A stretch of DNA of 32,163 bases from Bacillota bacterium (GCA_022360955.1 JAKSBV010000249.1:1-32163); one strand, 5' to 3'; shown: positions 8,447 through 32,163, numbered from the stretch's first letter. Program-made: numbers and translations. Notes: generated by a model from the sequence alone, not told the origin.

Positions 8447-8475
8447 TATTATATGTAACTTTATATAGGAATCGT
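8447..8475 (-). promoter_or_regulatory. candidate sigma-K-like promoter of the ATP-grasp gene
   Basis: On the minus strand CATATAATA (8455-8447) is preceded at 18 bases by AC (8475-8474). The -10 fits CATANNNTA; the spacing is one base longer than in the other boxes of this window. Confidence 0.4.
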
Positions 8476-8485
8476 GCATAAATTA
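8458..8485 (+). promoter_or_regulatory. candidate sigma-K-like promoter of the WbqC gene
   Basis: AC at 8458-8459, exactly 17 bases, then CATAAATTA at 8477-8485. This matches the AC-N17-CATANNNTA pattern seen before the Cys-rich genes. The -10 ends only 21 bases before the ATG, so the transcript would begin close to the ribosome binding site, which is a reason for caution. Confidence 0.5.
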
Positions 8486-11021: not shown

Positions 11022-11049
11022 TATTTTATGTAAAAGTACCCCAAAGGGT
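11022..11049 (-). promoter_or_regulatory. candidate sigma-K-like promoter of the dehydratase
   Basis: Read on the minus strand: AC at 11049-11048, a gap of exactly 17 bases, then CATAAAATA at 11030-11022. The box lies 20-48 bases upstream of the dehydratase ATG. Confidence 0.55.
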
Positions 11050-11202
11050 GATTCATATTGGTTAGGTTATTTTACAGCGTAAAAACTAAAAAGCTGAGGG
11101 GTTAAGGTGACGCTTTTTTATTGCCGTATCCATACATCAATTTTGGATTTCTCTCATATATTAGTAAAAGTGAGGAGCAGTCGATTTGGGGAGGGGAGTC
11201 AT

Positions 11203-18608: not shown

Positions 18609-18653
18609 CAAACCTTTTATTAAAAATATTTCTAATATTATGTAATCCCAGTA

Positions 18654-18681
18654 ACCGAATTCCTGCTTTTTGCATAAGATG
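18654..18681 (+). promoter_or_regulatory. sigma-K-like promoter, Cys-rich gene at 18905
   Basis: AC (18654-18655) inside GTAACCGAAT, 17 bases, then CATAAGATG (18673-18681). It differs from CATANNNTA only in the last base. The surrounding GTAACCGAAT is shared with the boxes of several paralogs. The leader down to the gene is about 220 bases and holds no ORF. Confidence 0.6.
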
Positions 18682-18904
18682 AATTATAGGATTGCAGTCT
18701 TATAGAGGCAGCAGAAGGTTTATGTTTTGCCTTTGGCTCGCCGGCGGGTAAGGTTAAAGAGACTCGGGATAAAGTATTTTTTAGAAGACTATGTAACCTA
18801 TTCACTGCTTACTTCATATGATGTTATTGTAAGTATTTAAATCCGAAAGTCGGCATTGGAAGAAGATATTAACCTAAAATCCATCAAGAAAGGAGATTTT
18901 GTGA

Positions 18905-19474
18905 ATGCAAAAAATTGTTAAAAGATATGAAAGAGATTATGATAAAAAGGTGAAATGCCCGCCTGCTCCGCCTATTTGTGCGGATTGCGAACCCAAGCAC
19001 CCTTGCCCCCAAGGCCTTCTTTCCGCTTGTTGTACAGGTGCAGGACTGCAAAACCTGAGTTCGTGCCCCACAACCCCTCGCTCTCTGGTGTGTGCGACTA
19101 TTGATACTACGTGTTTGTGCAAGCCGCTGGTTGCGGTAGATTTTACCTCTATTATTGCGGCTACGGTTAATGCGGGAGAGAGTCTGACGCTGACTTTCCA
19201 GGTGAGAAAGAGCTGCACTAACGGCCTGAACATTGAATGCGGAACCTGGACGTTTGTAAGAGATTTTGAAGCCGGTACGGGCAGCTTGATTACAAGCGAT
19301 TCCTTCGGATTTATTTTCTGTGACTGCAACCCCTGCCCTGCTTGCTGCACCTATGCGGTTGAACTGGTTTCGTGTACTGCAACCCCTGCCGCCACTGCTA
19401 CAGTCTTTACAGGCAGCTTCAGCATTTCTGCCCCGACAGTTTCCATAACAGCCGTTGACGCTTGCCCTCAGTAA
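18905..19474 (+). CDS. Cys-rich array protein 1 (single type-2 domain)
   Basis: 189 residues with 19 cysteines (10%), no signal peptide and no membrane helix. The header runs C18-x6-C25-x2-C28-x5-C34-x7-C42-C43 (KCPPAPPICADCEPKHPCPQG, then CCTGAG). Then follow SSCPTTPRSLVCATIDTTCLCKP, a beta-rich core with LTLTFQVRKSC and IECGTWTF, the tetra-Cys knot FCDCNPCPACCTYAVEL, and the C-terminal APTVSITAVDACPQ. This is the plainest member of the paralogous family. It may correspond to a Pfam DUF family (I suspect DUF4489, unchecked). The cysteines fit disulfide cross-linking or metal binding in a spore layer; this is inferred. AAAGGAGA precedes the ATG. Confidence 0.8.
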   Translation: MQKIVKRYERDYDKKVKCPPAPPICADCEPKHPCPQGLLSACCTGAGLQNLSSCPTTPRSLVCATIDTTCLCKPLVAVDFTSIIAATVNAGESLTLTFQVRKSCTNGLNIECGTWTFVRDFEAGTGSLITSDSFGFIFCDCNPCPACCTYAVELVSCTATPAATATVFTGSFSISAPTVSITAVDACPQ

Positions 19475-19519
19475 TTACAGCCGTTGGTCCGGAAGAATAA
19501 GAGGTTGTTTTGAAACACG

Positions 19520-19560
19520 GTTAACAAAAGGGCCCCTCCATCTAAGGCTCTTTTGTTAAC
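19520..19560 (+). terminator. hairpin after array protein 1
   Basis: GTTAACAAAAGGGCC (19520-19534) pairs with GGCTCTTTTGTTAAC (19546-19560), with one G-T pair. The right arm contains TTTT. The 19561-19716 leader of the next gene shows no exact sigma-K box. Confidence 0.6.
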
Positions 19561-19716
19561 ACTATAATGGTGAAACATTGTAATCCGTTGATTGGTATGA
19601 TGCAGAGTCGTTTTATCAAACTTGGCATTGAGATTATAGAGTTGTCTGGTGCTATCAAAGGTTTTATAACCCCGATGAATAGAAGTTTAGAACAATGACG
19701 AAAGGAGATTTAATAA

Positions 19717-20328
19717 ATGGCTAAAAGATGTTGTAGAGGCTATGACAGGAAAGTGAAGTGTCCCCCTGCTCCGCCTATTTGTGCAGATTGCGGCCCGCCT
19801 AAGCATCCTTGCCCGCAAGGTTCTGTTTTCGCTTGCTGTACAGGTTCGGGATTGCAGAACACGAGTGCATGTCCCACGACCCCCCGTTCTCTGGTATGTT
19901 GCACCGTTGATACCACTTGTCTGTGCAAACCGCTTGTTACATTGAATTATAATTCCATTATTAATGCAAGTATTACGGTAGATAATCCTACCGTTGGGGC
20001 TACAGACGCAGGCTTGAGCCTTACGCTGACTTTCCAAGTGAAAAAAAGCTGTACCAACGGCCAGAACATTGAATGCGGCAGCTGGACGTTCACACGAAAT
20101 GTGAATAATATCACCGGTGGTGCCAGTGTCACGGCGGTAACGAGTGATTCCTTCGGTTTTACGTTCTGTGACTGCAATCCGTGCCCAGCTTGCTGTACGT
20201 ATTCCGTTGAATTGGCATCCTGTACGCTTGTTTCTAACGGTGGTGACGCTAATACAGTATTCGCCGCAAACTTTGGCATTAGCGTACCGACGGTTATTTT
20301 ACAGGCAAACGACGCGTGCCCGCAGTGA
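19717..20328 (+). CDS. Cys-rich array protein 2 (single type-2 domain)
   Basis: 203 residues with about 22 cysteines, closely related to the protein before it. Start MAKRCCRGYDRKVKCPPAPP, then CADCGPPKHPCPQG, ACPTTPRSLVCCTVDTTCLCKP, FQVKKSCTNGQNIECGSWTF and FCDCNPCPACCTYSVEL, ending NDACPQ. Two extra cysteines lie at residues 5-6 and one after LVC. A longer, Thr/Val-rich insertion (VTAVTSDSFGF) precedes the knot. GAAAGGAGA precedes the ATG. No AC-N17-CATANNNTA box is found in its leader; GGTATGATG near 19594 is only a degenerate likeness, so it may be read from the gene upstream despite the hairpin. Confidence 0.8.
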   Translation: MAKRCCRGYDRKVKCPPAPPICADCGPPKHPCPQGSVFACCTGSGLQNTSACPTTPRSLVCCTVDTTCLCKPLVTLNYNSIINASITVDNPTVGATDAGLSLTLTFQVKKSCTNGQNIECGSWTFTRNVNNITGGASVTAVTSDSFGFTFCDCNPCPACCTYSVELASCTLVSNGGDANTVFAANFGISVPTVILQANDACPQ

Positions 20329-20380
20329 TGTTAAGTACCTCGCTCAAAGCGATAGATGGATGATTAACAATAGGGTTGAC

Positions 20381-20411
20381 AAAAAAGCCTGCGGTTTCCG
20401 GAGGCTTTTTT
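20381..20411 (+). terminator. rho-independent terminator after array protein 2
   Basis: AAAAAAGCCT (20381-20390) pairs with AGGCTTTTTT (20402-20411), followed by TGT. The loop GCGGTTTCCGG also appears after array proteins 3 and 4 (as GCGATTTCCGG and GCGGTTTTCGG), so the terminator has been duplicated with the genes. Confidence 0.85.
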
Positions 20412-20465
20412 GTCGGATGTGTCAAGAGGTGTGCAATAACTTTGCAATGTTATGTTATTAAAGTA

Positions 20466-20493
20466 ACCGAACACATTAGTTTTTCATACAGTG
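20466..20493 (+). promoter_or_regulatory. sigma-K-like promoter, Cys-rich gene at 20597
   Basis: AC (20466-20467) in GTAACCGAAC, 17 bases, then CATACAGTG (20485-20493); the final base differs from CATANNNTA. The downstream AAGCAGAAGG is shared with the leader of array protein 1. Confidence 0.55.
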
Positions 20494-20596
20494 AAGTATA
20501 AGCTGCAATGCTATAGAATGAAGCAGAAGGAAAACATGAACGTATAAATGGAGTGAATGGAGTTGAATATGAGTATGATGAAAGGGAGGTTTAAGG

Positions 20597-21196
20597 ATGA
20601 AAAGTGGAGCATATAAAAGAAAGCATGAAGGTTTTGTGAGTTGTCCGCCCTCTGCGCCTATTTGTGCAGATTGTTTCCCCAAGCACCCTTGTCCGCAGAA
20701 TGCTGTTTTCAGCTGCTGCACAGGTGCAGGGCTGCAAGATGTGAGCGCATGTCCGACGACACCGCTTTCACTGGTATGTGCAACCATTGATACTACGTGC
20801 TTGTGCAAGCCGTATGTCCAATTAGATTACAGCGCCATGATTACGACGGAAATTATGGTAGATGTGGGCCCGTCATTGATAGACGGAGGGGTCACCTTCG
20901 TATTGACTTTTCAGGTGAAAAAACGTTGTGATAACGGCCAGAGCATCGAATGCGGCAATTGGACGTTTACAAAAAGCATTAGTTCCGGTACCAATACGAT
21001 TGTTGCTTTGACAACGGGCGATGCATTTAAGTTCAGGTTCTGTGACTGCAATCCTTGTCCGGCTTGCTGCATATATTCTGTTGACCTGGTGTCCTGTGAG
21101 GTATCCGAATTTGGTGATGTTGACAGTTCTATGATAAGGTTTGGTATTAGTGCACCAACGGTTACTTTACTGGCAACCGACACTTGTCCGCAGTGA
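20597..21196 (+). CDS. Cys-rich array protein 3 (single type-2 domain)
   Basis: 199 residues with about 19 cysteines. It has the family header SCPPSAPICADCFPKHPCPQN, then SACPTTPLSLVCATIDTTCLCKP, LTFQVKKRCDNGQSIECGNWTF and the knot FCDCNPCPACCIYSVDLVSC, and ends APTVTLLATDTCPQ. It is somewhat diverged (R to L in PRS, T to I after the knot). GAAAGGGAGG fixes the ATG. It has its own promoter-like box and terminator, so it is a separate unit. Confidence 0.8.
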   Translation: MKSGAYKRKHEGFVSCPPSAPICADCFPKHPCPQNAVFSCCTGAGLQDVSACPTTPLSLVCATIDTTCLCKPYVQLDYSAMITTEIMVDVGPSLIDGGVTFVLTFQVKKRCDNGQSIECGNWTFTKSISSGTNTIVALTTGDAFKFRFCDCNPCPACCIYSVDLVSCEVSEFGDVDSSMIRFGISAPTVTLLATDTCPQ

Positions 21197-21248
21197 TCTG
21201 AGCGGATTTGTTTGAGATAATCAATGTATGATCGGGCATCATATTAGC

Positions 21249-21279
21249 AAAGAAGCCTGCGATTTCCGGAGGCTTCTTT
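21249..21279 (+). terminator. terminator after array protein 3
   Basis: AAAGAAGCCT (21249-21258) pairs with AGGCTTCTTT (21270-21279) around GCGATTTCCGG. It is a homolog of the terminator at 20381-20411. Confidence 0.8.
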
Positions 21280-21442
21280 GTGGTGCGGCCGGTCGAATCG
21301 CCGGTTCGGTACCCAGGGTTTTAGTGTGCATGAGGTCGTCTCCATGTCTTGTTTTCCAATGCAGAGCTATCTTTGAAAAGCCTCCTATGCAAATACATCA
21401 ACGGATACAAAATAACACAATAGCCTTATTTCATTATAGGTA

Positions 21443-21470
21443 ACTTAATAGGCGGTCTTTTCATACTATA
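21443..21470 (+). promoter_or_regulatory. sigma-K-like promoter, Cys-rich gene at 21563
   Basis: AC (21443-21444), exactly 17 bases, then CATACTATA (21462-21470), a full match to AC-N17-CATANNNTA. Confidence 0.65.
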
Positions 21471-21562
21471 AGATGTAAGCTGTAATAGGCAGATGAGGGA
21501 AAAGGAAATAGAGGTATGGAAGAAATGGAGGTTTAATACGATGATGAAAGGAGCTTTGACGG

Positions 21563-22699
21563 GTGAAAAGTGAAGAGTGTGGTAAAGCGTATAAAAAACC
21601 GGTGAAGTGTCCCCCTGCGGCCTCTGCTCGTGCAGACTGGGGAGCACCCAATCAGCCTTGCCCCCAAAGTGTGATTGTTAATTGCTGTACGGGAACAGGT
21701 TTGACACCGTTTGTGCTGCAATCGCCCATACTAAGTTTGGACGCACCTGTATCGATGGTGCATGCCGCGCTGGATACGACCTGCCAGCGCAAGCCTGTGG
21801 TTAACGTTGCGTTTGATTGTATGATTACCCATTCGGCTGATTCACCGGGCACAGCCGTATCTCTTGTTTTCCGGTTGAAAAGGTATTGTGAGGACGGACA
21901 AGAGGTTGAATGCGGTACCTGGACCCACACCAGGAGTCAAACTGCCGGTTTTGATGAGGGAAGTTTCGGGTTCGCCATTTGTGAACAAAATCTCCGCCCG
22001 GACTGTTGTAGATATGCGGTTGAATTAATGAATATTATTCTGGAGGAAGGGATGAATGCTACAATAGCCATCAGCGTACCCGCTCTTAAAATAGTGGCTG
22101 CGGAAATGTGTGGCGGCGGGAAGACGGATGGTTTGCCTGATGTAGATTTTTGTGCAGAGACCTTGGGAACTTATGGGGAGCGAAAAGCAAAATGTCATAC
22201 GGCAGTCCCGGTTTGTGCAGAGTGTGAACCCAAGCGTCCCAACCCCCAAGGGACTGTCTTTCATTGCTGCACAGGTGCGGACCTGCAAGCAACAAATACA
22301 TGTCCCGCTATTCCTCGTTCCCTGGCATGTGTAACCCTTGATACCAAGTGCCTGTGCAGGCCGCTGGCGGTACTGGCTTTTAGCGCCGTTATTACGGCTG
22401 CAGTTCCGTTGAATGAAAGCCTTATATTGGCTTTTCAAGTGAAAAAGTCCTGTAACAACGGTCAGGGTATTTCCTGCGGTACCTGGTCAACTTCTCTCAA
22501 TAGCGTTGCAGGGTCAGAGAGCGGGCTGACAGAGAGGAATGTCTTTACCTTCACGTTTTGCGACTGTCTCCCCGCTTCCGATTGCTGTACCTATACCGTT
22601 GATTTGCTGCCTGACACCGTTTCCGATCCGTTTACGGGCAGTTTTAGTATTGCGATGCCCACGGTTGCCGTAATGGCTGTCGATGCTTGTCCGCGGTGA
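21563..22699 (+). CDS. Cys-rich array protein 4 (two domains, cysteines being lost)
   Basis: 378 residues, type-1 plus type-2 domain, but with only about 30 cysteines where siblings of the same length have 36-39. In domain 1, CADC has become ARADW, LVCA has become MVHA, TTCLCKP has become TTCQRKP, and the CDCNPCPGCC knot has become CEQNLRPDCC. In domain 2, HPCPQG has become RPNPQG and CDCNPCPACC has become CDCLPASDCC. The start is GTG where the homologous leader of the next gene has ATG. The frame is intact over 1.1 kb, so it may still be made, but its cysteine framework is clearly relaxed. GAAAGGAGC precedes the start. Confidence 0.75.
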   Translation: MKSEECGKAYKKPVKCPPAASARADWGAPNQPCPQSVIVNCCTGTGLTPFVLQSPILSLDAPVSMVHAALDTTCQRKPVVNVAFDCMITHSADSPGTAVSLVFRLKRYCEDGQEVECGTWTHTRSQTAGFDEGSFGFAICEQNLRPDCCRYAVELMNIILEEGMNATIAISVPALKIVAAEMCGGGKTDGLPDVDFCAETLGTYGERKAKCHTAVPVCAECEPKRPNPQGTVFHCCTGADLQATNTCPAIPRSLACVTLDTKCLCRPLAVLAFSAVITAAVPLNESLILAFQVKKSCNNGQGISCGTWSTSLNSVAGSESGLTERNVFTFTFCDCLPASDCCTYTVDLLPDTVSDPFTGSFSIAMPTVAVMAVDACPR

Positions 22700-22752
22700 G
22701 TCAGCGCTCCCTGCGGAACGATAAACGGATGATTAAAGGTAACCGGCAGCAG

Positions 22753-22832
22753 CCTGAAAATACATTTGACCAAATAATAATGCTGCGTTTTTTGTATAAA
22801 TATAAGGCCCATTTTAAAGTTAGGCATCTATA
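22753..22832 (-). mobile_element. MITE-like element, partial copy 2
   Basis: Read on the minus strand this matches the left half of the element at 7210-7313: TATAGATGCCTAACTTTAAA, then AAAAAACGCAGCAT. It shares a further segment, CCTGAA..TACATTTGA, with the copy at 24289-24368, but the second terminal repeat is not present. It separates array protein 4 from a decayed terminator (AGCCTGCGGTTTTCGGAGG, about 22841-22859) of the type found after proteins 2 and 3. Confidence 0.6.
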
Positions 22833-22909
22833 ACAGCAGAGCCTGCGGTTTTCGGAGGATTTGTCGTTGAATACGGCCGGAGATATAGAATAAGCGGTAA
22901 TATTATGTA

Positions 22910-22937
22910 ACCGAATGCATCCTTCTTTCATACTATA
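22910..22937 (+). promoter_or_regulatory. sigma-K-like promoter, Cys-rich gene at 23045
   Basis: AC (22910-22911) in GTAACCGAATGCAT, exactly 17 bases, then CATACTATA (22929-22937): a full match to AC-N17-CATANNNTA. Confidence 0.65.
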
Positions 22938-23044
22938 AAAATATAAACTGCAATACCATAGGGTGAAGCAGGATAAAGATGTGAAAGTGTAAAAAGGATA
23001 TATGGAACGGATGATTCCTATAATGATGAAAGGAGCGTTGATGG

Positions 23045-24193
23045 ATGAAAAGTGAAGAGCGTCAAAAAGTCTATAAAAAGCCCGTGAAATGTCCGCCGGC
23101 CGGCCCGGTTTGTGCGGATTGCGAACCGCCCAAGCATCCTTGCCCGCAAAATGTGATTTTAAATTGCTGTACGGGTACAGGGCTGGCTCCGACTATTATA
23201 CAACTGCCCCAATTAATTCTCAATACGCCTATATCGCTGGTTTGCGCTGCGTTGGATACGACCTGTCTGTGTAAGCCTATGGTCAAAGTTGAGTTTGACT
23301 GTATCATTATCAATTCGGTCGGCGACTTTTTACCCGAGTCCCTTGTCTTTCGATTGAAAAAATCTTGTGATAACGGACAGGAGGTTGAATGCGGTATCTG
23401 GGCACATTCTAGAAATGCATCCGCTAATCTTGATGAGAGGTCCTTTAGATTCGTATTCTGTGACTGCAGTCCCTGCCCCGGCTGTTGTACCTATTCCGTT
23501 GAATTAGTTGATATCATCTTACCACAGGAGCAGGTTACGATAGGCATTAATGGGCCGACCCTTAAGGTGACGGCAATAGAAACTTGTGATGACCGGAAGA
23601 TAGGCTGTCCTTCGGCAGCGCCTCTTTGTGCGGAGAGCGGGAGAACTTATGCCGGACGGAAAATGGAGGTCCATAGCGCAGCCCCGGTTTGCGCGGATTG
23701 TGAGCCCAAGCATCCCTGTCCCCAAGGGGTTATTTTCAATTGTTGTACGGGCGCAGGCATTCAAAACACAGGTGCGTGTCCCCCTACCCCTCGTTCTCTG
23801 TTATGTGTAACGATTGATACCACATGCTTGTGCAGGCCGCGGGTCGTACTGGATTTCAGCGCTATTATTGCAGCTGCGATTCCGCCTAACGAAACCCTTA
23901 TACTAACCTTCCAAGTGAAAAAGTCCTGTGACAACGGTCAGGAAATTCAATGCGGTTCCTGGTCTACTTTAATAAGCAGGGCTTTAGGGATAGAGTTGGG
24001 TCCGACAACAAGTGATTCCTTTAGCTTTACGTTCTGCGATTGCAATCCCTGTTCCGCTTGCTGCACCTATGCCGTTGAACTGGTATTTTGTGCCGCATTC
24101 AATGCGGATGATCCTACCCAGCCATTTACGGGCAGCTTTAGTATTGATGCGCCGACGGCTGTCGTAACGGCATTTGATGCTTGCCCGCAGTGA
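23045..24193 (+). CDS. Cys-rich array protein 5 (type-1 plus type-2 domain)
   Basis: 382 residues with about 38 cysteines. Domain 1 (type 1): KCPPAGPVCADCEPPKHPCPQN, LNCCTGTGLAP, then a hydrophobic stretch ending NTPISLVCAALDTTCLCKPMV in place of the type-2 ACPTTPRS segment, SCDNGQEVECGIW, FCDCSPCPGCCTYSVEL. Domain 2 (type 2): VCADCEPKHPCPQG, CCTGAGIQNTGACPPTPRS, SCDNGQEIQCGSW, FCDCNPCSACCTYAVEL, ending FDACPQ. The linker (CDDRKIGCPSAAPLCAES ...) contains extra cysteines and looks like a worn header. GAAAGGAGC precedes the ATG. Confidence 0.8.
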   Translation: MKSEERQKVYKKPVKCPPAGPVCADCEPPKHPCPQNVILNCCTGTGLAPTIIQLPQLILNTPISLVCAALDTTCLCKPMVKVEFDCIIINSVGDFLPESLVFRLKKSCDNGQEVECGIWAHSRNASANLDERSFRFVFCDCSPCPGCCTYSVELVDIILPQEQVTIGINGPTLKVTAIETCDDRKIGCPSAAPLCAESGRTYAGRKMEVHSAAPVCADCEPKHPCPQGVIFNCCTGAGIQNTGACPPTPRSLLCVTIDTTCLCRPRVVLDFSAIIAAAIPPNETLILTFQVKKSCDNGQEIQCGSWSTLISRALGIELGPTTSDSFSFTFCDCNPCSACCTYAVELVFCAAFNADDPTQPFTGSFSIDAPTAVVTAFDACPQ

Positions 24194-24288
24194 CGGTGGC
24201 ATGGACTTTAATGCTGCAGGATGAAGCAGTATAAAGATGTGAAGGTGTAAAGAGGATAAGGATTGCATAAAGATAGCGCACTTTATAC

Positions 24289-24368
24289 CTGAATACATTT
24301 GAACAGACAACGATGGTTCTGCGTTTTTTGTGTAAATGCAAATACCATTTTAAAGTTGGGCATCTGGA
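24289..24368 (-). mobile_element. MITE-like element, partial copy 3
   Basis: On the minus strand it reads from GCCCAACTTTAAAATGG through AAAAAACGCAGAACCATCGTTG, matching the left half of copy 1. It sits in the leader of array protein 6, between a segment homologous to the leader of protein 5 (GATGAAGCAG...AAAGATGTGAAGGTGTAAAGAGG) and the shared ribosome-binding region, so it was inserted or recombined there after duplication. Confidence 0.6.
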
Positions 24369-24395
24369 GTATGATAATGAAAGGAGCGTTGATGG

Positions 24396-25526
24396 ATGAA
24401 AAGTAAAGATGATCAAAAGGCATATAAAGGGCTGATCAAGTGCCCGCCTGCTGCCCCGGTTTGTGCGGATTGCGACCCCAAGCATCCTTGCCCGCAAGGT
24501 GTCATCTTTAATTGTTGTACGGGAGCAGGATTGGGTACGCTTGTTTTGCTGGAGCCCGTGCTGGACATTGATATACCTGTATCGGTGGTGTGTGCTGCGA
24601 TAGATACGACTTGTTTATGCAAGCCTGTGGTCAATGTTAGATTTGACTGTATTGTGACCAATTCAATTTTTGCCGGTTTGCAAACAGGTATCGTAGGCAC
24701 CCTTACCTTTCGGTTAAAAAAATCCTGTGATAGCGGACAGGAGATTGAGTGCGGTACTTGGATGTATACGAGAGATAATAACTTCGTCTTTGAAAATACC
24801 TCATTTGGGTTTGCATTCTGTGACTGCAATCCTTGTCCGGGCTGCTGTACGTATGCTGTTGAATTGGTGTCGGTGAATGATGAAGGAGCGGTTAACGTAA
24901 CACTGGCAATTCAGGGGCCGACTCTTCAGGTAGAGGCTGTAGAAGCTTGTGGTGACGCGAGAGGAGGCTGTACTTCCGTCCCGTCTTTTTGTGCGGCAGC
25001 GGGCATTGATGGGGTATCAAAGGGCAAATGTCCTCCGGCGGCCCCGGTTTGTGCAGACTGCCGGCCAAAGCATCCCTGTCCTCAAGGTGCTGTCTTTAAT
25101 TGCTGTACAGGTGCAGGCATACCGACCACAAGCGCATGTCCTTCTATCCCTCGTTCCCTGGTATGTGTAACGGTAGATACCACATGCTTGTGCAAGCCGC
25201 TGGTCGTATTGGATTTCAGTGCTGTTATCGGGTCGGTATTTCAATTGCAGGGAGAGCTTTTAGGCCTGGTCTTCCAGGTCAAAAAAACCTGTGATGACGG
25301 CCAGGAAATCGTGTGCGGCAATTGGTCATTTACCATAAATGTCATTCAAGCTTTGACGAGGAGTGATTCTTTTAAATTCACGTTCTGTGACTGCAATCCT
25401 TGTCCGGGCTGCTGCACCTATTCCGTGGAATTGGTTTCTTGTAGTATCGCCAATCCCGTTTTTCAGAGATTTAGTATTGAAGCACCGACGGCTGCGGTAA
25501 TAGCGGTGGATACTTGTCCCCAGTGA
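24396..25526 (+). CDS. Cys-rich array protein 6 (type-1 plus type-2 domain)
   Basis: 376 residues with about 39 cysteines, the best-preserved two-domain copy. Domain 1: KCPPAAPVCADCDPKHPCPQG, FNCCTGAGLG, DIPVSVVCAAIDTTCLCKP, SCDSGQEIECGTW, FCDCNPCPGCCTYAVEL. Domain 2: KCPPAAPVCADCRPKHPCPQG, CCTGAGIPTTSACPSIPRS, TCDDGQEIVCGNW, FCDCNPCPGCCTYSVELVSC, ending VDTCPQ. The leader has no AC-N17-CATANNNTA box; the part corresponding to the protein 5 promoter is missing, so it is probably cotranscribed with protein 5, 202 bases upstream. GAAAGGAGC precedes the ATG. Confidence 0.8.
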   Translation: MKSKDDQKAYKGLIKCPPAAPVCADCDPKHPCPQGVIFNCCTGAGLGTLVLLEPVLDIDIPVSVVCAAIDTTCLCKPVVNVRFDCIVTNSIFAGLQTGIVGTLTFRLKKSCDSGQEIECGTWMYTRDNNFVFENTSFGFAFCDCNPCPGCCTYAVELVSVNDEGAVNVTLAIQGPTLQVEAVEACGDARGGCTSVPSFCAAAGIDGVSKGKCPPAAPVCADCRPKHPCPQGAVFNCCTGAGIPTTSACPSIPRSLVCVTVDTTCLCKPLVVLDFSAVIGSVFQLQGELLGLVFQVKKTCDDGQEIVCGNWSFTINVIQALTRSDSFKFTFCDCNPCPGCCTYSVELVSCSIANPVFQRFSIEAPTAAVIAVDTCPQ

Positions 25527-25570
25527 CCATAAGATGCCGGGGTTATGTCCGGAATAGGGTTAAGGAAAAG

Positions 25571-25589
25571 GCCTTCGCGTTGCGAAGGC
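25571..25589. terminator. hairpin between array protein 6 and a convergent gene
   Basis: GCCTTCGC (25571-25578) pairs with GCGAAGGC (25582-25589). Read leftwards it is followed by CCTTTTCC, so it could stop transcription from the minus-strand glycosyltransferase as well as from the array. Confidence 0.55.
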
Positions 25590-25600
25590 TGCAAAATCCG

Positions 25601-26734
25601 CTAACAAAAGGGATTCATTTCCTTAATGGCAGGGATTAAGTCTTGAAACGTATTTTTAGCAGCACCGGTTAATAAATGTACAGCCCTTGCAAGTACATCT
25701 GCTCCGTTGACAGGCACTTGAGAGTAGCCTTCACGGTAGAGGCTGCCCATAGAGATGCAGCTCTCGATACAGCCCTTTAGATGGTGTGCATTGATTTTTT
25801 CCACTACAGGCAGGCGACCGGATAATAAATCATCCAACAGCCGTATTTTCAGATCTCTTTCTGCAAAGTCTCCGGGCAGAAAAAGCAAGGGCTTTTTTGT
25901 GACGATACAATCCTGCAGTATGCCCATGCCGGGCTTGGATACTACCAGTTCGCTGGCATTTACCAGATCTATCCCGTTGTAAAATAACGGTGCCTTGATA
26001 ATGCCGGGGCGAAAGGGGAAGGGGTTATTCTCCAGGCCGCTTGAGATTACGATTGGATAGGGTGCTTTAAGCTCATTAACGGCTTGATAAAAGGCATTTA
26101 ATTGGGCATAGATATTTTCCGATACCGCGGCACCGGCGTGAATTAAAATGAACGGATCATCGGGTTTTAAGCCCAAAAGCCTGTTGACGGCTGCCTTATC
26201 TTTTCTGACCTGTCTGGCTACGATGGGAATGGGGATGTAGGTACAGGGAATACTTGGACTGTATTGGGGCTGCTTGAGGTTGATATGGAAAAAGATGTCG
26301 TGGTGTGAGGCCGTCTTGCGGACAAGGTTTTTAAAGGCGGCTATTCTTGCGGAATCATGCCCGGTAATATTAATGTCCCCGTGATAGAGGCAGCAGGTGA
26401 TTAAGCTGCCGGGAAACAGTTTTTTCATTTTGTTGATGTTGGTAATAAAGTCATTTAAAAGGACAGAAGTGGTGCCAAGTTTTTTGACTATTTTTTGATC
26501 CTTTATTTTGAGATTTTTTTTAATTTTTCCCGTTTTTCTGTTGATGTATGCCTTGCAATCATGCAAGTTATATACGCTGCCATTGTATTGAGAGATATTT
26601 GCTTGCATAAATTGCCGCATGCTGCCTTTTACCAAGCAGGCAACGGGTACATGGCCGTATTTTCTTATATTTTCTGCCGTGGCTATGAACCTTACGGCGT
26701 GACCGAATCCGGCGTTTAATATCCCGGTTATCAT
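25601..26734 (-). CDS. GT-B glycosyltransferase (MurG/GT28-like)
   Basis: A 377-residue GT-B-type glycosyltransferase. ILNAGFGHAVRFIATAENI at the N-terminus is the GxGH nucleotide-sugar transferase motif. The C-terminal half has PFILIHAGAAVSENIYAQL, then VVSKPGMGILQDCIVTKKPLLFLPG and EINAHH, the usual donor-binding region of GT28-like enzymes (the acceptor-donor E is in DFAERDL). No signal peptide. GGGAGGG precedes the ATG. It is inserted on the opposite strand in the Cys-rich array and has its own sigma-K-like promoter, back to back with that of array protein 7. It probably glycosylates a product of the array or a sporulation glycan; the substrate is unknown. Confidence 0.75.
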   Translation of the reverse strand: MITGILNAGFGHAVRFIATAENIRKYGHVPVACLVKGSMRQFMQANISQYNGSVYNLHDCKAYINRKTGKIKKNLKIKDQKIVKKLGTTSVLLNDFITNINKMKKLFPGSLITCCLYHGDINITGHDSARIAAFKNLVRKTASHHDIFFHINLKQPQYSPSIPCTYIPIPIVARQVRKDKAAVNRLLGLKPDDPFILIHAGAAVSENIYAQLNAFYQAVNELKAPYPIVISSGLENNPFPFRPGIIKAPLFYNGIDLVNASELVVSKPGMGILQDCIVTKKPLLFLPGDFAERDLKIRLLDDLLSGRLPVVEKINAHHLKGCIESCISMGSLYREGYSQVPVNGADVLARAVHLLTGAAKNTFQDLIPAIKEMNPFC

Positions 26735-26805
26735 AAGAGCCCTCCCATTCTATCAGGTTTTCTCAAATGTGGTTTTGTGACGTGAGTGCCAAGTGCTCAA
26801 CCCTA

Positions 26806-26833
26806 TATTATATGAAGGCAGGCCGTGTAAAGT
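26806..26833 (-). promoter_or_regulatory. sigma-K-like promoter of the GT-B gene
   Basis: Minus strand: AC at 26833-26832, exactly 17 bases, then CATATAATA (26814-26806). It is a full match to AC-N17-CATANNNTA, about 72 bases upstream of the ATG. Confidence 0.6.
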
Positions 26834-26932
26834 GACTTTTATTTTCACACTTTCAAAATGACAATAGGCTATTGTGAGCCGGATGTATCAAAGCATAGAA
26901 AAAAACGTTCATAATATTATGTAAACAAAGGA

Positions 26933-26960
26933 ACCGAATGCATGGATATGTCATATTATA
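26933..26960 (+). promoter_or_regulatory. sigma-K-like promoter, Cys-rich gene at 27009
   Basis: AC (26933-26934) in GAACCGAATGCAT, exactly 17 bases, then CATATTATA (26952-26960): a full match. It is divergent from the GT-B promoter about 100 bases away. Confidence 0.65.
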
Positions 26961-27008
26961 ATAATGTAGAAGTCATAAATATTTTCTCTGTGAAAGGAGG
27001 TACTTTTA

Positions 27009-28127
27009 ATGAAGGATAAGGATTATGAAGAAAATTATGGTGAAAAGACTGTAGAGGACCTTGTTAAAGACAATGCCGGAATTTGTGTAGAATCAAAAGA
27101 GTGTGCGCCTGCCGCACCGGTTTGTGCAGATTGCGTGCCGCCGAAATCTCCGTGTCCGCAAGGAGGTATTTTCAATTGCTGCACGGGCGCCGGTCTGGGC
27201 CCGGCTTTCGTACAGCAGCCCGATGTGCTGCTCCAGACACCGGTATCGCTGGTGTGTGCGACACTGGACACAAGTTGCTTGTGCAAGCCTATGGTCAAAG
27301 TTGAATATAGCAGTATCGTTAAAACGGCTTCGATTAATACAGTTACGCCGGAAGAAATCTCGCTGACCTTTCAGTTAAAGAAAACTTGTGACAACGGACA
27401 GGTGATTGTATGCGACACACGGACACTGACGAGAGATGGGGGCTTTTTGTCAAATAATGATTCTTTTGTATTTACGTTCTGTGACTGCAATCCCTGCGCT
27501 GGCTGCTGCACCTATTCCGTTGAATTGCTTTCTTTTGTCCTGGATGAAGGCTTTGTAGGGTTGATAAGCGTTGTTGCACCCACGATTAGATTAACGGCAA
27601 CAGATATCTGCGGCGTTCAAGAGGCAGATGGCGAAACAAAGTGTCCCTGTCTCCAGGACGTTCTTTTCAACTGCTGTACGGGAACAGGCATACCAAACAC
27701 AAGCGTATGCCCGTCTACCCCTCGCTCGTTAGTATGTGCGACGATTGATACCACACGCTTGTGCAAGCCGCTGGTGGAAGTGAATTTCAGCGCTGTTATT
27801 GATGCTGCCGTTCCTGCGGGAGACCTCTTGACACTCACCTTCCAAGTGAAAAAATCCTGCGATAACGGTCAGGAGATCGACTGCGGCAGTTGGACGTTCA
27901 CACGCCTCACAGCCGGACTTATCGGAACCGACCAAGTCAATACAAGTGATTCCTTTAGATTCACGTTCTGTGACTGCAACCCGTGTCCTGCTTGCTGCAC
28001 CTATTCCGTTGAACTGGCATCTTGCGCCGGTGGGAGTATTGTAGGCATCCCGTTTACGGGAAGCTTTGGCATTAACGCACCGACCGTGAGTATAATGGCC
28101 TTCGATATTTGCCCTCAGGATTTTTAA
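27009..28127 (+). CDS. Cys-rich array protein 7 (two domains, second header shortened)
   Basis: 372 residues with about 34 cysteines. It has a longer N-terminus (MKDKDYEENYGEKTVEDLVKD) than its siblings and a changed header, ECAPAAPVCADC. Domain 1 is type 1 with FCDCNPCAGCCTYSVEL. Domain 2 is type 2 but its header is shortened: CGVQEADGETKCPCLQDVLF replaces the CPPAAPVCADC...CPQG block, and TTCLCKP has become TTRLCKP. It ends FDICPQDF, two residues longer than the usual CPQ. AAAGGAGG precedes the ATG. It is otherwise the same architecture as proteins 5, 6 and 8. Confidence 0.8.
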   Translation: MKDKDYEENYGEKTVEDLVKDNAGICVESKECAPAAPVCADCVPPKSPCPQGGIFNCCTGAGLGPAFVQQPDVLLQTPVSLVCATLDTSCLCKPMVKVEYSSIVKTASINTVTPEEISLTFQLKKTCDNGQVIVCDTRTLTRDGGFLSNNDSFVFTFCDCNPCAGCCTYSVELLSFVLDEGFVGLISVVAPTIRLTATDICGVQEADGETKCPCLQDVLFNCCTGTGIPNTSVCPSTPRSLVCATIDTTRLCKPLVEVNFSAVIDAAVPAGDLLTLTFQVKKSCDNGQEIDCGSWTFTRLTAGLIGTDQVNTSDSFRFTFCDCNPCPACCTYSVELASCAGGSIVGIPFTGSFGINAPTVSIMAFDICPQDF

Positions 28128-28174
28128 CAAGCGGTGAAGCATAAGCTATATGGGTATTGTCATATGGTTAACGG

Positions 28175-28203
28175 AAAAGCCTTCGATTTTTGAAGGCTTT
28201 TTT
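28175..28203 (+). terminator. rho-independent terminator after array protein 7
   Basis: AAAAGCCTTC (28175-28184) pairs with GAAGGCTTTT (28192-28201) around GATTTTT, followed by TT. The terminator after array protein 8 is nearly identical, including the TTAAC upstream. Confidence 0.85.
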
Positions 28204-28277
28204 GCCAGACCAATCCATTGTATTTGAGTTGGAATGAATCAAGACAATACGTATTCCAGGGTGTATAAATTCCGGCT

Positions 28278-28313
28278 GAAGAAAATGATTCCAGCAACTG
28301 ATATTCCAAGGCT
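28278..28313 (-). repeat. dispersed short repeat, copy c (inverted)
   Basis: The reverse complement reads AGCCTTGGAATATCAGTTGC followed by TGGAATCATTTTCTTC, nearly identical to 7354-7389. The 28204-28494 stretch otherwise shows no gene. Confidence 0.6.
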
Positions 28314-28494
28314 GAAAAATAGTTGAAGGTTAAGTGCTGAGAGATGAGGGTTGAGAATGAACCGCCCATTGTTTATCCCTCCTTGCTGCGGATTACTTTA
28401 TGCTCCTGTTTGGTTATATTCCGACTTCCGCCCTCTGCCCTCCGACCTCCGGCACATAGATTTCTTCAACTGCATTAAATGTGCCCGCTAGGGA

Positions 28495-28522
28495 ACATAC
28501 CGGCGGGTTATTTCATATTATG
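28495..28522 (+). promoter_or_regulatory. sigma-K-like box upstream of a remnant and gene 28765
   Basis: AC (28495-28496), 17 bases, then CATATTATG (28514-28522), one base from CATANNNTA. It precedes the remnant 5' end at 28629. Confidence 0.5.
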
Positions 28523-28615
28523 TAATATAATCGGCCTATGAAGTCCGGATTAGAAAAAATATTACGCCGTCAAAAGTCAGTACCCAATGGATGCAGATAT
28601 AGAATAGCAATGAAA

Positions 28616-28696
28616 GGAGATTTTGCGAATGTGCAGAATGCTTCATAGGTGTGACAGGAAGGATGATGGGGAAATGTAGTCCCCACCTGCTTGCAA
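28616..28696 (+). pseudogene. remnant 5' end of a Cys-rich array gene
   Basis: AAAGGAGATTTTGCGAATG, a normal array-type ribosome binding site and ATG (28627-28629), is followed by codons giving MCRMLHRCDRKDDGEM and then a stop. The nucleotide sequence aligns with the start of array protein 2 (GACAGGAA, and CCCC-CCTGCT at the place of the CPP codons). After about 65 bases the homology ends and the leader of the next gene begins. It is read as a truncated, decayed copy. Confidence 0.45.
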
Positions 28697-28699
28697 AAA

Positions 28700-28727
28700 A
28701 CCGAATATTTATTTGCTGAATATAGGA
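28700..28727 (+). promoter_or_regulatory. damaged sigma-K-like box of gene 28765 (-10 lost)
   Basis: AACCGAATATTTATTTGCTG aligns with the promoter of the gene at 31661, but where that gene has CATATTATAAA before AATATAGGATT, these 11 bases are missing. The AC (28700-28701) remains and the -10 position now reads AATATAGGA. Confidence 0.45.
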
Positions 28728-28764
28728 TTTGCAACGATTATCCATATGAAAGGAGAAGTTATAA

Positions 28765-29841
28765 ATGGTAAGAAAAAATGATCAAAAAGCTTATGAAAAA
28801 TCGGTAAAATGCCCGCCTGCCGCCCCTGCTTGTGCAGACTGCGGGCCGCCCAAGCATCCGTGCCCGCAGGACATGATTCTCAATTGCTGTACGGGAACCG
28901 GACTGGGTCAGGTTTTTATACCGGAGCCCGGCCCGTTTCAGCAGACGCCGGCACCGCTGGTGTGTGCTGAGATAGATACGACTTGTTTGTGCAACCCTAT
29001 GGTCAAAGTCAGATTTGACTGTATTCCCTCCGTTTCACTCGGCAGTGGGCAAATATCACTTGTTTTTTTGCTGAAAAAGTCTTGTGATAACGGACAGGAA
29101 ATTGAATGCGGTACATGGACGTATAGGAGAAGTTTTGCTTTAGCCTTTGGAAATGACTCTTTCGGATTTACGTTCTGTGATTGCAATCCATGTCCCGGAT
29201 GCTGCACGTATTTCGTTGAATTGCTTCTTTTGGATGAACAGGGCGGCGATATAATCGGTGTTATTGCCCCTACGCTTAAGGTGGAAGCAGTGGATACCTG
29301 CGGTATTAAGGATGCAGCTTGTCTTTCCGGTGCCCCGGCTTATGCAGATTGCAAGCCCAAGCATCCGTGCCCGCAAGGTGCTGTTTTCAATTGCTGTACG
29401 GGAACAGGCATACCAACCACAAGTGTATGTCCTTCTACACCGCGTTCGTTAGTGTGCGTATCCCTTGATACCACCTGCCTGTGCAAACCGCTGGTCGAAT
29501 TGGATTTCAGTGCTGTTATTGCTGCTGATGTTCCGCAGGGAGACCTCTTGACACTCACCTTCCAGGTGAAAAAATCCTGTGACAATGGCCGGGAGATGGG
29601 ATGCGGGACTTGGACATTTACACGAGCTGCAGTCGGAGCCATTGTGACTGAACGAGTTGCAACAAGCGATTCCTTTAGATTTACGTTTTGCGACTGCAAT
29701 CCTTGCCCTGGCTGCTGCACGTATGCTGTTGAATTGCTGTCTTGTATAGCTGTTGATCTTGATTTGACTCCGTTTGAGGGGAACTTTAGCATTAACGCAC
29801 CAACAGCTGCTGTGTGGGCGGTCGACACTTGTCCTCAGTAA
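28765..29841 (+). CDS. Cys-rich array protein 8 (type-1 plus type-2 domain)
   Basis: 358 residues with about 36 cysteines. Domain 1: KCPPAAPACADCGPPKHPCPQD, LNCCTGTGLG, TPAPLVCAEIDTTCLCNP, SCDNGQEIECGTW, FCDCNPCPGCCTYFVEL. Domain 2: APAYADCKPKHPCPQG (the first header cysteine of CADC is Tyr), CCTGTGIPTTSVCPSTPRS, SCDNGREMGCGTW, FCDCNPCPGCCTYAVELLSC, ending VDTCPQ. The linker is short. AAAGGAGAA precedes the ATG. Its close promoter has lost the -10 box, so expression may depend on the box at 28495-28522. Confidence 0.8.
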   Translation: MVRKNDQKAYEKSVKCPPAAPACADCGPPKHPCPQDMILNCCTGTGLGQVFIPEPGPFQQTPAPLVCAEIDTTCLCNPMVKVRFDCIPSVSLGSGQISLVFLLKKSCDNGQEIECGTWTYRRSFALAFGNDSFGFTFCDCNPCPGCCTYFVELLLLDEQGGDIIGVIAPTLKVEAVDTCGIKDAACLSGAPAYADCKPKHPCPQGAVFNCCTGTGIPTTSVCPSTPRSLVCVSLDTTCLCKPLVELDFSAVIAADVPQGDLLTLTFQVKKSCDNGREMGCGTWTFTRAAVGAIVTERVATSDSFRFTFCDCNPCPGCCTYAVELLSCIAVDLDLTPFEGNFSINAPTAAVWAVDTCPQ

Positions 29842-29897
29842 TGTGGTCAATCGGTCGAGAAGAGTTATTTGTGTATATAGTGTCATATTGTTAACTG

Positions 29898-29923
29898 AAA
29901 AGCCTTCGATTTTTGAAGGCTTT
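29898..29923 (+). terminator. terminator after array protein 8
   Basis: AAAAGCCTTC pairs with GAAGGCTTT around GATTTTT, homologous to 28175-28203. The T run is short. Confidence 0.75.
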
Positions 29924-30031
29924 GTCCATGTCCATGTATATGCAATGATGTATCCGGTTACAAGACAGGATTGAGGATGCATGAACAAAATATACCGGAT
30001 TTAAATAGCCTGATTTGTTGAAAAGGTTATA

Positions 30032-30059
30032 ACACCTTATTTATGAACCGCATAGTATA
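30032..30059 (+). promoter_or_regulatory. sigma-K-like promoter of the amidase-holin pair
   Basis: AC (30032-30033), exactly 17 bases, then CATAGTATA (30051-30059): a full match to AC-N17-CATANNNTA. A MITE-like element lies between it and the amidase gene, giving a leader of about 270 bases. Confidence 0.55.
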
Positions 30060-30111
30060 TAAAAAGATAGAAGCGGCTATTTTTCTTTATTCGTCGTTTG
30101 CTTATAGACCG

Positions 30112-30320
30112 TATAGATATCCAACTTTAAAATCGAATTTATATTTACACAAAAAACGCAGAATCATCGTTGTTTTGAGTACTTTCCAATCAATAACTGT
30201 CCAAAAGGCGTTTCAAAAAAGTTGAATTTATAATTCTTGGACATAGCTAACATGAATAATGTATTTTTTAAAACGCCCTTTGTATAAATAGTATTTTAGG
30301 TTTAAAGTTGGTTATCTTTA
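30112..30320 (+). mobile_element. MITE-like element, copy 4, carrying a nested insertion
   Basis: The ends TATAGATATCCAACTTTAAA (30112-30131) and TTTAAAGTTGGTTATCTTTA (30301-30320) match copy 1 at 7210-7313, as do the adjoining bases up to AATCATCGTTG and from GTATAAATAG. Between them lie about 105 extra bases with their own inverted repeats: CAAAAGGCGTTTCAAAAAA (30202-30220) and the reverse complement of 30264-30282. The right end of the element lies just before the amidase ribosome binding site. Confidence 0.65.
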
Positions 30321-30338
30321 ACAAAAGGAGTTGAGAAA

Positions 30339-31016
30339 ATGAAAATAGTCATTGACCCGGGGCATGGCGGAAAGGACCCCGGGGCATTGGGCAGCTACAG
30401 CAGGGAAAAAGATATTAACTTAATACTTTCGTTAAAACTCAGAGATAAGCTGATTGCCGGAGGGATAAATGCCATTTGTACACGGGAGGATGACCGTTAT
30501 ATAGATCTGCAGACACGGTGTGATATTGCGAATAATGTTGAAGCGAATTATTTTATCAGTATCCACTGCAATGGGGCAAAGGACCCCCGGGCCGGCGGAA
30601 CGGAAACCTATTGCTATAGGAAAGCCTCTGAGGCCTATAGACTGGCGCAGGTGCTGCAAAATCAAATGGCTGCGTTTAACAAAAATATAAACAGGGGTGT
30701 GAAAACAGTTGGCTTCTATGTATTGCGCCATACCAGAATGCCTGCCGTACTCATTGAAGCAATGTTTATTACCAACCGGCAAGAAGAAGATAAATTAAAT
30801 AACGCCCAATGGCAGGAGGGCTTTACCGGTATACTAACGAGGGCTATCTACGAATATCTAGGATTTCCGGATGGCAAGGCAAGGCATTTTGCGCAGGATG
30901 CATATGAGGCATGGAAAGCAAAAGGCATTATTTTGGGAGAACATGATTTGGATGATCCGATTACCTGGGGGCAATATTTGATCACGCAGGAAAGGCTGAA
31001 GACCTTAGAGGAATGA
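30339..31016 (+). CDS. N-acetylmuramoyl-L-alanine amidase (Amidase_3), endolysin-like
   Basis: A 225-residue zinc amidase that cuts the bond between MurNAc and the stem peptide of peptidoglycan. Zinc ligands H9 (IDPGHGGKDPGA), E23 (SREKDINL) and H76 (ISIHCNGA), and catalytic E140 (VLIEAMFITN), are all present. The core ends near residue 180. The last 45 residues (FAQDAYEAWKAKGI ... DPITWGQYLI) resemble the short tails of clostridial phage endolysins. No signal peptide, so export would need the holin-type protein encoded 52 bases downstream. AAAGGAG precedes the ATG. The sigma-K-like box upstream and its place in the array suggest use in sporulation. Confidence 0.9.
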   Translation: MKIVIDPGHGGKDPGALGSYSREKDINLILSLKLRDKLIAGGINAICTREDDRYIDLQTRCDIANNVEANYFISIHCNGAKDPRAGGTETYCYRKASEAYRLAQVLQNQMAAFNKNINRGVKTVGFYVLRHTRMPAVLIEAMFITNRQEEDKLNNAQWQEGFTGILTRAIYEYLGFPDGKARHFAQDAYEAWKAKGIILGEHDLDDPITWGQYLITQERLKTLEE

Positions 31017-31068
31017 TGAGGCTATATCCGAATTCGGTTCCCAATCTCAACAAGGAAGGAGGGATAAG

Positions 31069-31389
31069 ATGCTTAACGGGATATTGCTGCAAAGCTTAAT
31101 GCTGATCATTCAGGCAGCTATACTTATTGTAGGCGTGTATATCGTACAATACATCAGACTAAGGCTTGCGAAAGAAAGATTTTATTTTGTCTATTCCTTA
31201 GCCAAAACGGTGGTTATATCGGTAGAACAAATGATAGGGCCCGGACGTGGTGCGGATAAAAAGCAGGAGGCATTGCAGGTTTTAAAGAATTTAACCAAAG
31301 GGAAATTGTCGGATGAACAGATGGATAGGGTTATTGAAGCAGCTGTGTATGAGATGAATGGGATGTTAAGGATAGACCGCAGCATTTAA
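31069..31389 (+). CDS. phage holin, LL-H family-like membrane protein
   Basis: A 106-residue protein with one N-terminal membrane helix (about 5-26, ILLQSLMLIIQAAILIVGVYIV). A charged helical region follows with VYSLAKTVVISVEQMIGPG, KKQEALQVLKNL and MDRVIEAAVYEMN. This order is that of LL-H-type phage holins (Phage_holin_6_1), which let cytoplasmic endolysins reach the wall. AAGGAGG precedes the ATG. It follows the amidase gene closely, forming a two-gene lysis cassette with no other phage genes around it. Family assignment is by recognition of the overall pattern and has not been checked by search. Confidence 0.7.
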   Translation: MLNGILLQSLMLIIQAAILIVGVYIVQYIRLRLAKERFYFVYSLAKTVVISVEQMIGPGRGADKKQEALQVLKNLTKGKLSDEQMDRVIEAAVYEMNGMLRIDRSI

Positions 31390-31416
31390 GAGTGATTTTC
31401 AATATATGACGGTTTA

Positions 31417-31451
31417 ACAGCGTAAATTGTCACCCGTACAATTTACGCTGT
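31417..31451 (+). terminator. hairpin after the holin-like gene
   Basis: A perfect 14-base-pair stem, ACAGCGTAAATTGT (31417-31430) with ACAATTTACGCTGT (31438-31451) and a seven-base loop. The following CGGTTTATA has only a short T run. Confidence 0.7.
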
Positions 31452-31504
31452 CGGTTTATATATAATGTATTGACGCGTTGTGCTATAGATAATAAACAGT
31501 AACG

Positions 31505-31542
31505 TTGGAAATATAATCGTACTCCAGCAACAGGTTATATTC
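31505..31542 (-). repeat. dispersed short repeat, copy d (inverted)
   Basis: The reverse complement matches 63-95 at the window start: GAATAT..., then TGGAGTACGATTATATTTC. It lies between the lysis pair and the next Cys-rich gene. Confidence 0.55.
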
Positions 31543-31584
31543 ATTATTTTACATCTTTAAAAGACTCGTTATGTCATCCAAAGA

Positions 31585-31612
31585 ACCGAATACCTGCTTG
31601 CTGCATATTATA
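31585..31612 (+). promoter_or_regulatory. sigma-K-like promoter, Cys-rich gene at 31661
   Basis: AC (31585-31586) in GAACCGAATAC, exactly 17 bases, then CATATTATA (31604-31612): a full match to AC-N17-CATANNNTA. Confidence 0.65.
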
Positions 31613-31660: not shown

Positions 31661-32163
31661 ATGATCAATAAAAATTATCAAAGAACTTATGCAAAACCTG
31701 TAAAATGCCCGCCCGCCGCACCCATATGTGCAGACTGCGGGCCGCCCAAGCACCCGTATCCGCAAGGCGTTATTTTCAATTGCTGTACGGGAGCCGGGTT
31801 GAGTCCGGTTGTGATTGGAACGGCAATTAACGGATTATTCCTTGACACCCCTGTATCATTGGTGTGTGCTGCGCTTGATACCACCTGCTTATGCAAGCCG
31901 ATGGTCACCGTCGAGTTTAATTGTATCGTCAGCAACTTTTTCTTGGCAGGGATTGAGGGAACCTCACTGACTTTCCAGTTGAAGAAATCTTGTGATAACG
32001 GACAGGAAGTGGTATGCGGCACCTGGACGATGACGAGACCTTTTGTCTTTGGTACTGCAACCAGCAATAGTGAAGATTTTGGGTTTGCGTTCTGTGACTG
32101 CAATCCCTGCCCGGGCTGTTGTACCTACTTCGTTGAATTGATTTCGGCGGAAAGTGTAGGCGC
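31661..32163 (+). CDS. Cys-rich array protein 9 (type-1 domain, cut by the window end)
   Basis: The frame is open from ATG 31661 to the end of the window (167 codons) and is incomplete at the 3' end. It encodes MINKNYQRTYAKPVKCPPAAP, CADCGPPKHPYPQG, FNCCTGAGLS, DTPVSLVCAALDTTCLCKPMV, FQLKKSCDNGQEVVCGTWTM and FCDCNPCPGCCTYFVEL. The header cysteine of HPCPQG is Tyr here (TAT instead of TGC or TGT). The LVCAALDTTCLCKP form without ACP..PRS marks it as a type-1 domain, so by analogy a type-2 domain should follow beyond the window. GAAAGGAGA precedes the ATG. Confidence 0.8.
   Translation, partial: MINKNYQRTYAKPVKCPPAAPICADCGPPKHPYPQGVIFNCCTGAGLSPVVIGTAINGLFLDTPVSLVCAALDTTCLCKPMVTVEFNCIVSNFFLAGIEGTSLTFQLKKSCDNGQEVVCGTWTMTRPFVFGTATSNSEDFGFAFCDCNPCPGCCTYFVELISAESVG

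Follow-up and report, generated by a model that had tools for sequence, protein, structure and literature searches.

In B. subtilis and C. difficile, published accounts assign promoters with AC at -35 and CATA at -10 to sigma-K and those with ATA at -35 to sigma-E, the preference for AC or ATA being set by an Arg/Gln pair in the two factors (PMC517825, PMC3789822). The same accounts describe B. subtilis promoters that sigma-K shares with sigma-E, the -10 elements of the two being nearly identical (PMC517825). On the protein side, a described system for comparison is BxpB, a trimeric jelly-roll protein of the exosporium (PMC10470788). The window, by which we mean the whole 32,163-nt stretch of Bacillota bacterium DNA analysed here (GCA_022360955.1, JAKSBV010000249.1:1-32163), carries an array of genes for one- and two-domain DUF4489 proteins (PF14879; Table 1). 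The first-pass annotation had noticed a promoter-like box, AC-N17-CATANNNTA, before most of these genes, and this observation is real and stronger than was stated then. We consider the boxes to be, very probably, sigma-K promoters, predicted to drive late mother-cell expression of the array. The kind of promoter is already known; what is new is its link to the DUF4489 family across genera and a further element, TTATGT.

Boxes and genes of the DUF4489 array

Three array proteins exceed the curated Pfam score for PF14879, and, 21563 apart, every array gene has aligned domains that match the family. The genes are paralogues (~52-66% identical to the query), and the host genome holds more than 20 DUF4489 genes spread over several contigs. 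Most members of this large gene array have kept their own copy of the putative developmental promoter.

Table 1. Boxes, related upstream elements and DUF4489 genes of the window, by position.
Feature	Position	Strand	Context
Exact box ATGTAAC..CATAAATTA	8458..8485	+	before gene with likely ATG ~8507, GGAGGGG ahead of ATG
Exact box	11022..11049	-	20 bp before polysaccharide-biosynthesis gene 9970-11001
One-mismatch box (AT for AC), weak	11136..11163	+	divergent from 11022; before glycosyltransferase gene, likely ATG 11203
TTATGT element	18638..18643	+	10 bp upstream of -35 AC; others at 20450, 26917, 31569
TG-for-TA box CATAAGATG	18654..18681	+	223 bp before DUF4489 gene 18905; TTATGT at 18638
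Second, nearer box TATGTAAC..CATATGATG	18796..18823	+	DUF4489 gene 18905; absent from first-pass list
DUF4489, one domain, 189 aa	18905..19474	+	Pfam match; fold model
DUF4489, one domain, no good box	19717..20328	+	best upstream candidate has three mismatches to exact pattern
TG-for-TA box CATACAGTG	20466..20493	+	before DUF4489 gene 20597; TTATGT at 20450
DUF4489, one domain	20597..21196	+	family match
Exact box	21443..21470	+	before DUF4489 gene 21563
DUF4489-related, two domains	21563..22699	+	57% identical to 23045 protein
Exact box	22910..22937	+	before DUF4489 gene 23045; TTATGTA directly 5'
DUF4489, two domains	23045..24193	+	Pfam match
DUF4489, two domains, no box	24396..25526	+	leader-like DNA and dispersed repeat upstream
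Exact box	26806..26833	-	before unnamed gene 25601-26734 (weak glycosyltransferase match only)
Exact box	26933..26960	+	before DUF4489 gene 27009; TTATGT at 26917
DUF4489, two domains	27009..28127	+	Pfam match
TG-for-TA box CATATTATG	28495..28522	+	before gene remnant 28629-28679; 242 bp before DUF4489 gene 28765
Decayed promoter copy ACCGAATATTTATTTGCTG-AATATAGG	28700..28726	+	adjoins gene 28765; lacks 11 bp spanning -10
DUF4489, two domains	28765..29841	+	family match
Exact box	30032..30059	+	no close gene; repeat-derived DNA between box and amidase gene 30339
Exact box ACCGAATACCTGCTTGCTGCATATTATA	31585..31612	+	48 bp before DUF4489 gene 31661; TTATGT at 31569
DUF4489, runs past window end	31661..32161	+	family match

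Exact boxes occur eight times on the two strands of the window, against a mean of 0.99 per dinucleotide shuffle (0/100 shuffles reached eight) and 1.3 expected from the genome-wide density (Poisson P = 7e-5). The four exact sites reported earlier, 21443, 22910, 26933 and 31585, were located with their 17-base gap, as were the one-mismatch sites 18654, 20466 and 28495, but the list of exact sites was incomplete, those at 8458 (+), 11022 (-), 26806 (-) and 30032 (+) having been missed. Two features expected of a sigma-K promoter were found, namely an AC at -35 with a CATANNNTA-like -10, and a fixed spacing, which in the spacing controls was 17 here (eight matches in the window, with 0-3 at every other spacing from 8 to 27) and 16 or 17 in other genomes. 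According to the gene calls each exact box lies upstream of a same-strand gene, except 8458, which falls within a GTG-start extension. The true start of this ORF, called from the GTG at 8474, is probably the downstream ATG with its ribosome site, and once the ORF is trimmed accordingly none of the eight exact boxes lies in coding sequence.

One-mismatch boxes were no commoner in the window as a whole than expected (29 against 27.4), so that such sites rest on position and shared extended sequence and not on counts. The three listed in the first-pass annotation all carry TG for TA at the last position, a variant found also at other DUF4489 genes and at dpaA. Of the nine array genes, those at 19717 and 24396 have no good box. 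A matrix derived solely from DUF4489 promoters that lie outside the window ranked the 31585 box first and the 18796 box second in the window. At the gene 28765 the arrangement is tandem, with the intact 28495 box upstream of a decayed copy, whose alignment with the 31585 promoter is broken by the missing bases over the -10; on the simplest reading, this gene would now use the distal box.

Association of the box with the gene family

Across the host genome, the bare AC-N17-CATANNNTA has 189 matches against 294 for the reversed control, and most of the 189 are probably due to chance. The first-pass annotation had proposed comparing intergenic with coding frequency over the genome, and here the outcome went against the bare pattern, which, in 400 kb of contigs picked regardless of matches, turned up 12 times in coding DNA and not once in the 45.6 kb upstream of genes. 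As it is not enriched upstream, it is predictive only in combination with the gene family or the extended sequence. A first estimate of upstream enrichment was discarded, having been inflated by contigs partly chosen for their matches and gone in the unbiased ones. The excess of the box is tied to particular genes: among those preceded by 100 bp or more of free DNA, AC-N17-CATANNNTR (last box base A or G) precedes 13 of 19 DUF4489 genes and 17 of 619 others (Fisher P = 7e-15, a value that overstates the independent evidence because the paralogues share descent). The DUF4489 genes without it comprise two in the window, 19717 and 24396, and copies on contigs C145, C172 and C82. The C172 copy has a one-mismatch box and the C82 copy an exact box with a spacing of 16, while no box was found at either of the two C145 array genes that have at least 100 bp of upstream DNA. 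The same type of box also precedes a LysM and glycosyl-hydrolase-like gene of the host.

In view of this kinship, we examined column conservation in 15 DUF4489 promoters. The eight box columns averaged 1.75 bits and the other 120 columns 0.44, in a set somewhat biased toward the box as some sites were picked for matching it. The box might be merely inherited, as part of upstream DNA that was copied when the array grew by duplication and has no promoter function today, and the paralogy of the genes together with the 0.44 bits still shared by the flanking columns would fit such descent. This is nevertheless very improbable, as the box columns are near-invariant among diverged promoters whose remaining columns are mostly scrambled, distant DUF4489 genes of other genera show the same spacing, and the box also stands before unrelated genes of the window (8458, 11022, 26806) and before dpaA.

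As independent evidence from outside the host, we compared 28 DUF4489 upstreams (at most 150 bp from the start, several from related species) gathered by a phylum-wide search and a scan of named genomes of Syntrophomonas and other Clostridia. AC-N16/17-(C/A)ATANNNTR was present in 26 of the 28, against 1.17 in shuffles, the relaxed C/A letter of the -10 having been adopted after some of these sequences were viewed; the stricter C-only form was present in eight (0.37 in shuffles), and TGTAAC-N16/17-MATANNNTR in 13 (0.00 in shuffles). The first -10 base of the Syntrophomonas promoters is often A instead of C. DUF4489 is scattered through other sporulating lineages. Several observations run counter to the sigma-K reading: the bare pattern is unenriched, two array genes and the two C145 genes with enough upstream DNA are boxless, the array promoters are partly co-descended, which makes counts within the host genome non-independent, the -10 in Syntrophomonas often starts with A, and some B. 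subtilis sigma-K promoters also serve sigma-E (PMC517825).

The sigma factor and the TTATGT element

The host genome encodes both mother-cell factors, and in region 4.2 sigma-E reads ISQSYIS, with the glutamine, and the joined sigma-K reads ISRSYVS, with the arginine that matches the AC of the box. Its sigK is split: the N-terminal half lies on contig C102, where a recombinase-like gene of 547 aa adjoins it, and the C-terminal half lies on contig C216 beside a DUF4489 gene. Joined at the shared core ATAGAGAATG the halves give one open frame, so that the marks of a skin element, an interrupted sigK, an adjacent recombinase and a frame intact on joining, are all present. The DNA before sigK carries AC-N17-CATATAATT, which resembles promoter P2 of sigK in C. 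difficile. An established late mother-cell gene also bears the box, as dpaA, which is under sigma-K control in B. subtilis, has AC-N17-CATAAAATG ~50 bp upstream (C86:75407; one gene, with a one-letter variant). As a further positive control yabG was sought and not found in the host genome, and spoIVA was dropped as a sigma-E comparison; nothing was drawn from it because of a dispersed repeat in its upstream region.

The fit to the sigma-K consensus claimed at first is thus upheld by the AC at -35, the CATA at -10, the encoded sigma-K with its matching arginine and the family link across genera. Earlier use in the mother cell, from sigma-E promoters, would be compatible with a -10 nearly identical to that of sigma-K, with the dual promoters described for B. 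subtilis (PMC517825) and with the presence of sigma-E in the genome. It is nonetheless improbable, since nearly every copy has a correctly spaced AC and not ATA and, in published data, that single -35 base separates sigma-E from sigma-K.

TTATGT lies exactly 10 bp before the AC at nine host DUF4489 promoters, and TATGT directly abuts the -35 at 22910 and 18796. The composite TTATGT-N10-AC-N17-CATANNNTR occurs nine times in the 4.64-Mb genome, a count partly set by its definition from these promoters, but its genome-wide specificity, with 9/9 upstream of DUF4489 genes, is not so set; among 59 related genomes the composite occurs once. The element may either bind a protein or be left over from the descent of the family. 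The boxes might instead be the site of another regulator or of a sigma factor of unknown type, resembling sigma-K promoters by chance, and the conservation of a further element at nine promoters speaks for this. We find it hardly credible, as the two-block layout, the 16/17-bp spacing and the place just before starts are those of sigma-K promoters, and a sigma factor to match them is encoded. SpoIIID, although encoded in the genome, was rejected as the TTATGT binder, as its consensus does not fit. More speculatively, and with a rather low chance of being right, TTATGT, which precedes the -35 by some one and a half turns of the helix, could be the candidate site of an undescribed late mother-cell co-activator, a stand-in for GerE that would bring on all of the DUF4489 family in a single late burst. 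C. difficile lacks GerE, as do the Clostridium genomes surveyed in earlier work (PMC3789822, PMC517825).

Predicted role of the array and comparison with known systems

If the boxes are sigma-K promoters, excision of the skin-like element by a serine recombinase would rejoin sigK in the mother cell, and RNA polymerase with sigma-K, the late mother-cell sporulation factor, would then recognise the box as a promoter. By homology to mapped promoters, the region-4.2 arginine would read the C of the -35 AC, and CATANNNTA/G would serve as the -10 element 17 bp downstream of the AC. In this way sigma-K would activate the DUF4489 array at the same time as some of the glycan-biosynthesis genes that flank it. 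The boxes at 8458, 11022 and 26806 stand before flanking genes, which makes it probable that part of this gene neighbourhood is expressed along with the array.

In the confident fold model of the 18905 protein (pLDDT 84), a cysteine-rich tail of low confidence leads into a jelly roll, the fold of TNF/C1q-like spore-surface proteins (BxpB/ExsF). Its structure matches are TNF/C1q-like domains, including B. anthracis BxpB (8d02, Z 9.3) and ExsFA (7r5i, Z 8.9); scores equal to or above these were obtained for unrelated TNF-like lectins and a viral capsid protein, so that function cannot be read from the fold. The array motif FNCCTG..C resembles the cysteine motif of ENA pilus subunits (DUF3992), which were therefore considered and then set aside, as DUF3992 did not match and no ENA subunit was among the listed structure matches, an absence that is no exclusion. 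Late mother-cell promoters, cysteine-rich tails and a jelly-roll fold together suggest that the DUF4489 proteins are spore-surface proteins, and the array products, with their TNF/C1q-like jelly roll and cysteine-rich N-terminal tail, would probably assemble there. With a sigma-K-type box before nearly every DUF4489 gene, the family is a likely late spore-surface set. No paper on DUF4489 was found in the literature searched, and the reading offers this uncharacterised cysteine-rich family a testable function in the last stage of spore making. TGTAAC or TTATGT together with the box could also provide a small signature for late spore genes in uncultured Clostridia, where mutants are absent.

The predicted DUF4489 domain fold is like that of the exosporium proteins BxpB/ExsF and other TNF/C1q-like jelly rolls, but the family has no sequence match in the PDB, to BxpB/ExsF or otherwise. 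As in the skin elements of B. subtilis and C. difficile, the host sigK is in two pieces, with a recombinase gene by the N-terminal half and an intact frame on joining; unlike in those, the halves lie on separate contigs and the length and content of the element are seen only in part. The TTATGT placed 10 bp upstream of the AC at nine promoters here was not found described for the B. subtilis and C. difficile sigma-K promoters in the available parts of the reports. With those promoters the boxes share the AC at -35, the CATA-type -10 and the same specificity arginine of sigma-K, together with a position before genes for spore-surface proteins, predicted as such here (PMC517825, PMC3789822), whereas the targets here are DUF4489 genes.

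Array genes and boxes

Among the DUF4489 (PF14879) array genes, the box at 28495, a candidate sigma-K promoter, belongs as its own promoter box to a short remnant which looks like the beginning of a vanished array gene. The stretch that separates gene 18905 from gene 19717 holds a long, terminator-like inverted repeat, which would mean that gene 19717 has no evident promoter. The amidase/holin-like pair sits among the array members. Outside the window, contig C173 carries a DUF4489 gene as well as a 545-aa gene with an exact box 53 bp upstream; by eye, the product of the latter resembles vanadium haloperoxidase.

Features discussed and their positions
Feature	Location
Array gene remnant, 16 codons	window 28629-28679
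Long inverted repeat, GTTAACAAAAG ... CTTTTGTTAAC	window 19511-19562
545-aa gene region	L058, contig C173:30066-31773
CwlD-like amidase gene, then holin-like gene	window 30339-31389
First dispersed repeat, ~100-230 bases	window 24265-24365, 30090-30320, also 22759-22829, 7213-7313
Second dispersed repeat	window 28170-28480
sigK, two pieces on two contigs	L039:7665-9677 and L040:3466-3846

Dispersed repeats

Among the genome contigs examined, copies of the first dispersed repeat occur on about 50, and the second matches 43. Gene 24396 has a copy of the first in its upstream DNA; the spoIVA upstream region, judged by eye, contains the same repeat. The end of contig C216 was likewise found by eye to resemble the second, which possibly marks an assembly break point there.

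The split sigK gene

The two halves of sigK share the core ATAGAGAATG, and joining them there restores an unbroken reading frame. A recombinase-like gene of 547 aa adjoins the N-terminal half. The arrangement is that of a skin-like element, skin being the sigK intervening element of B. subtilis and C. difficile.
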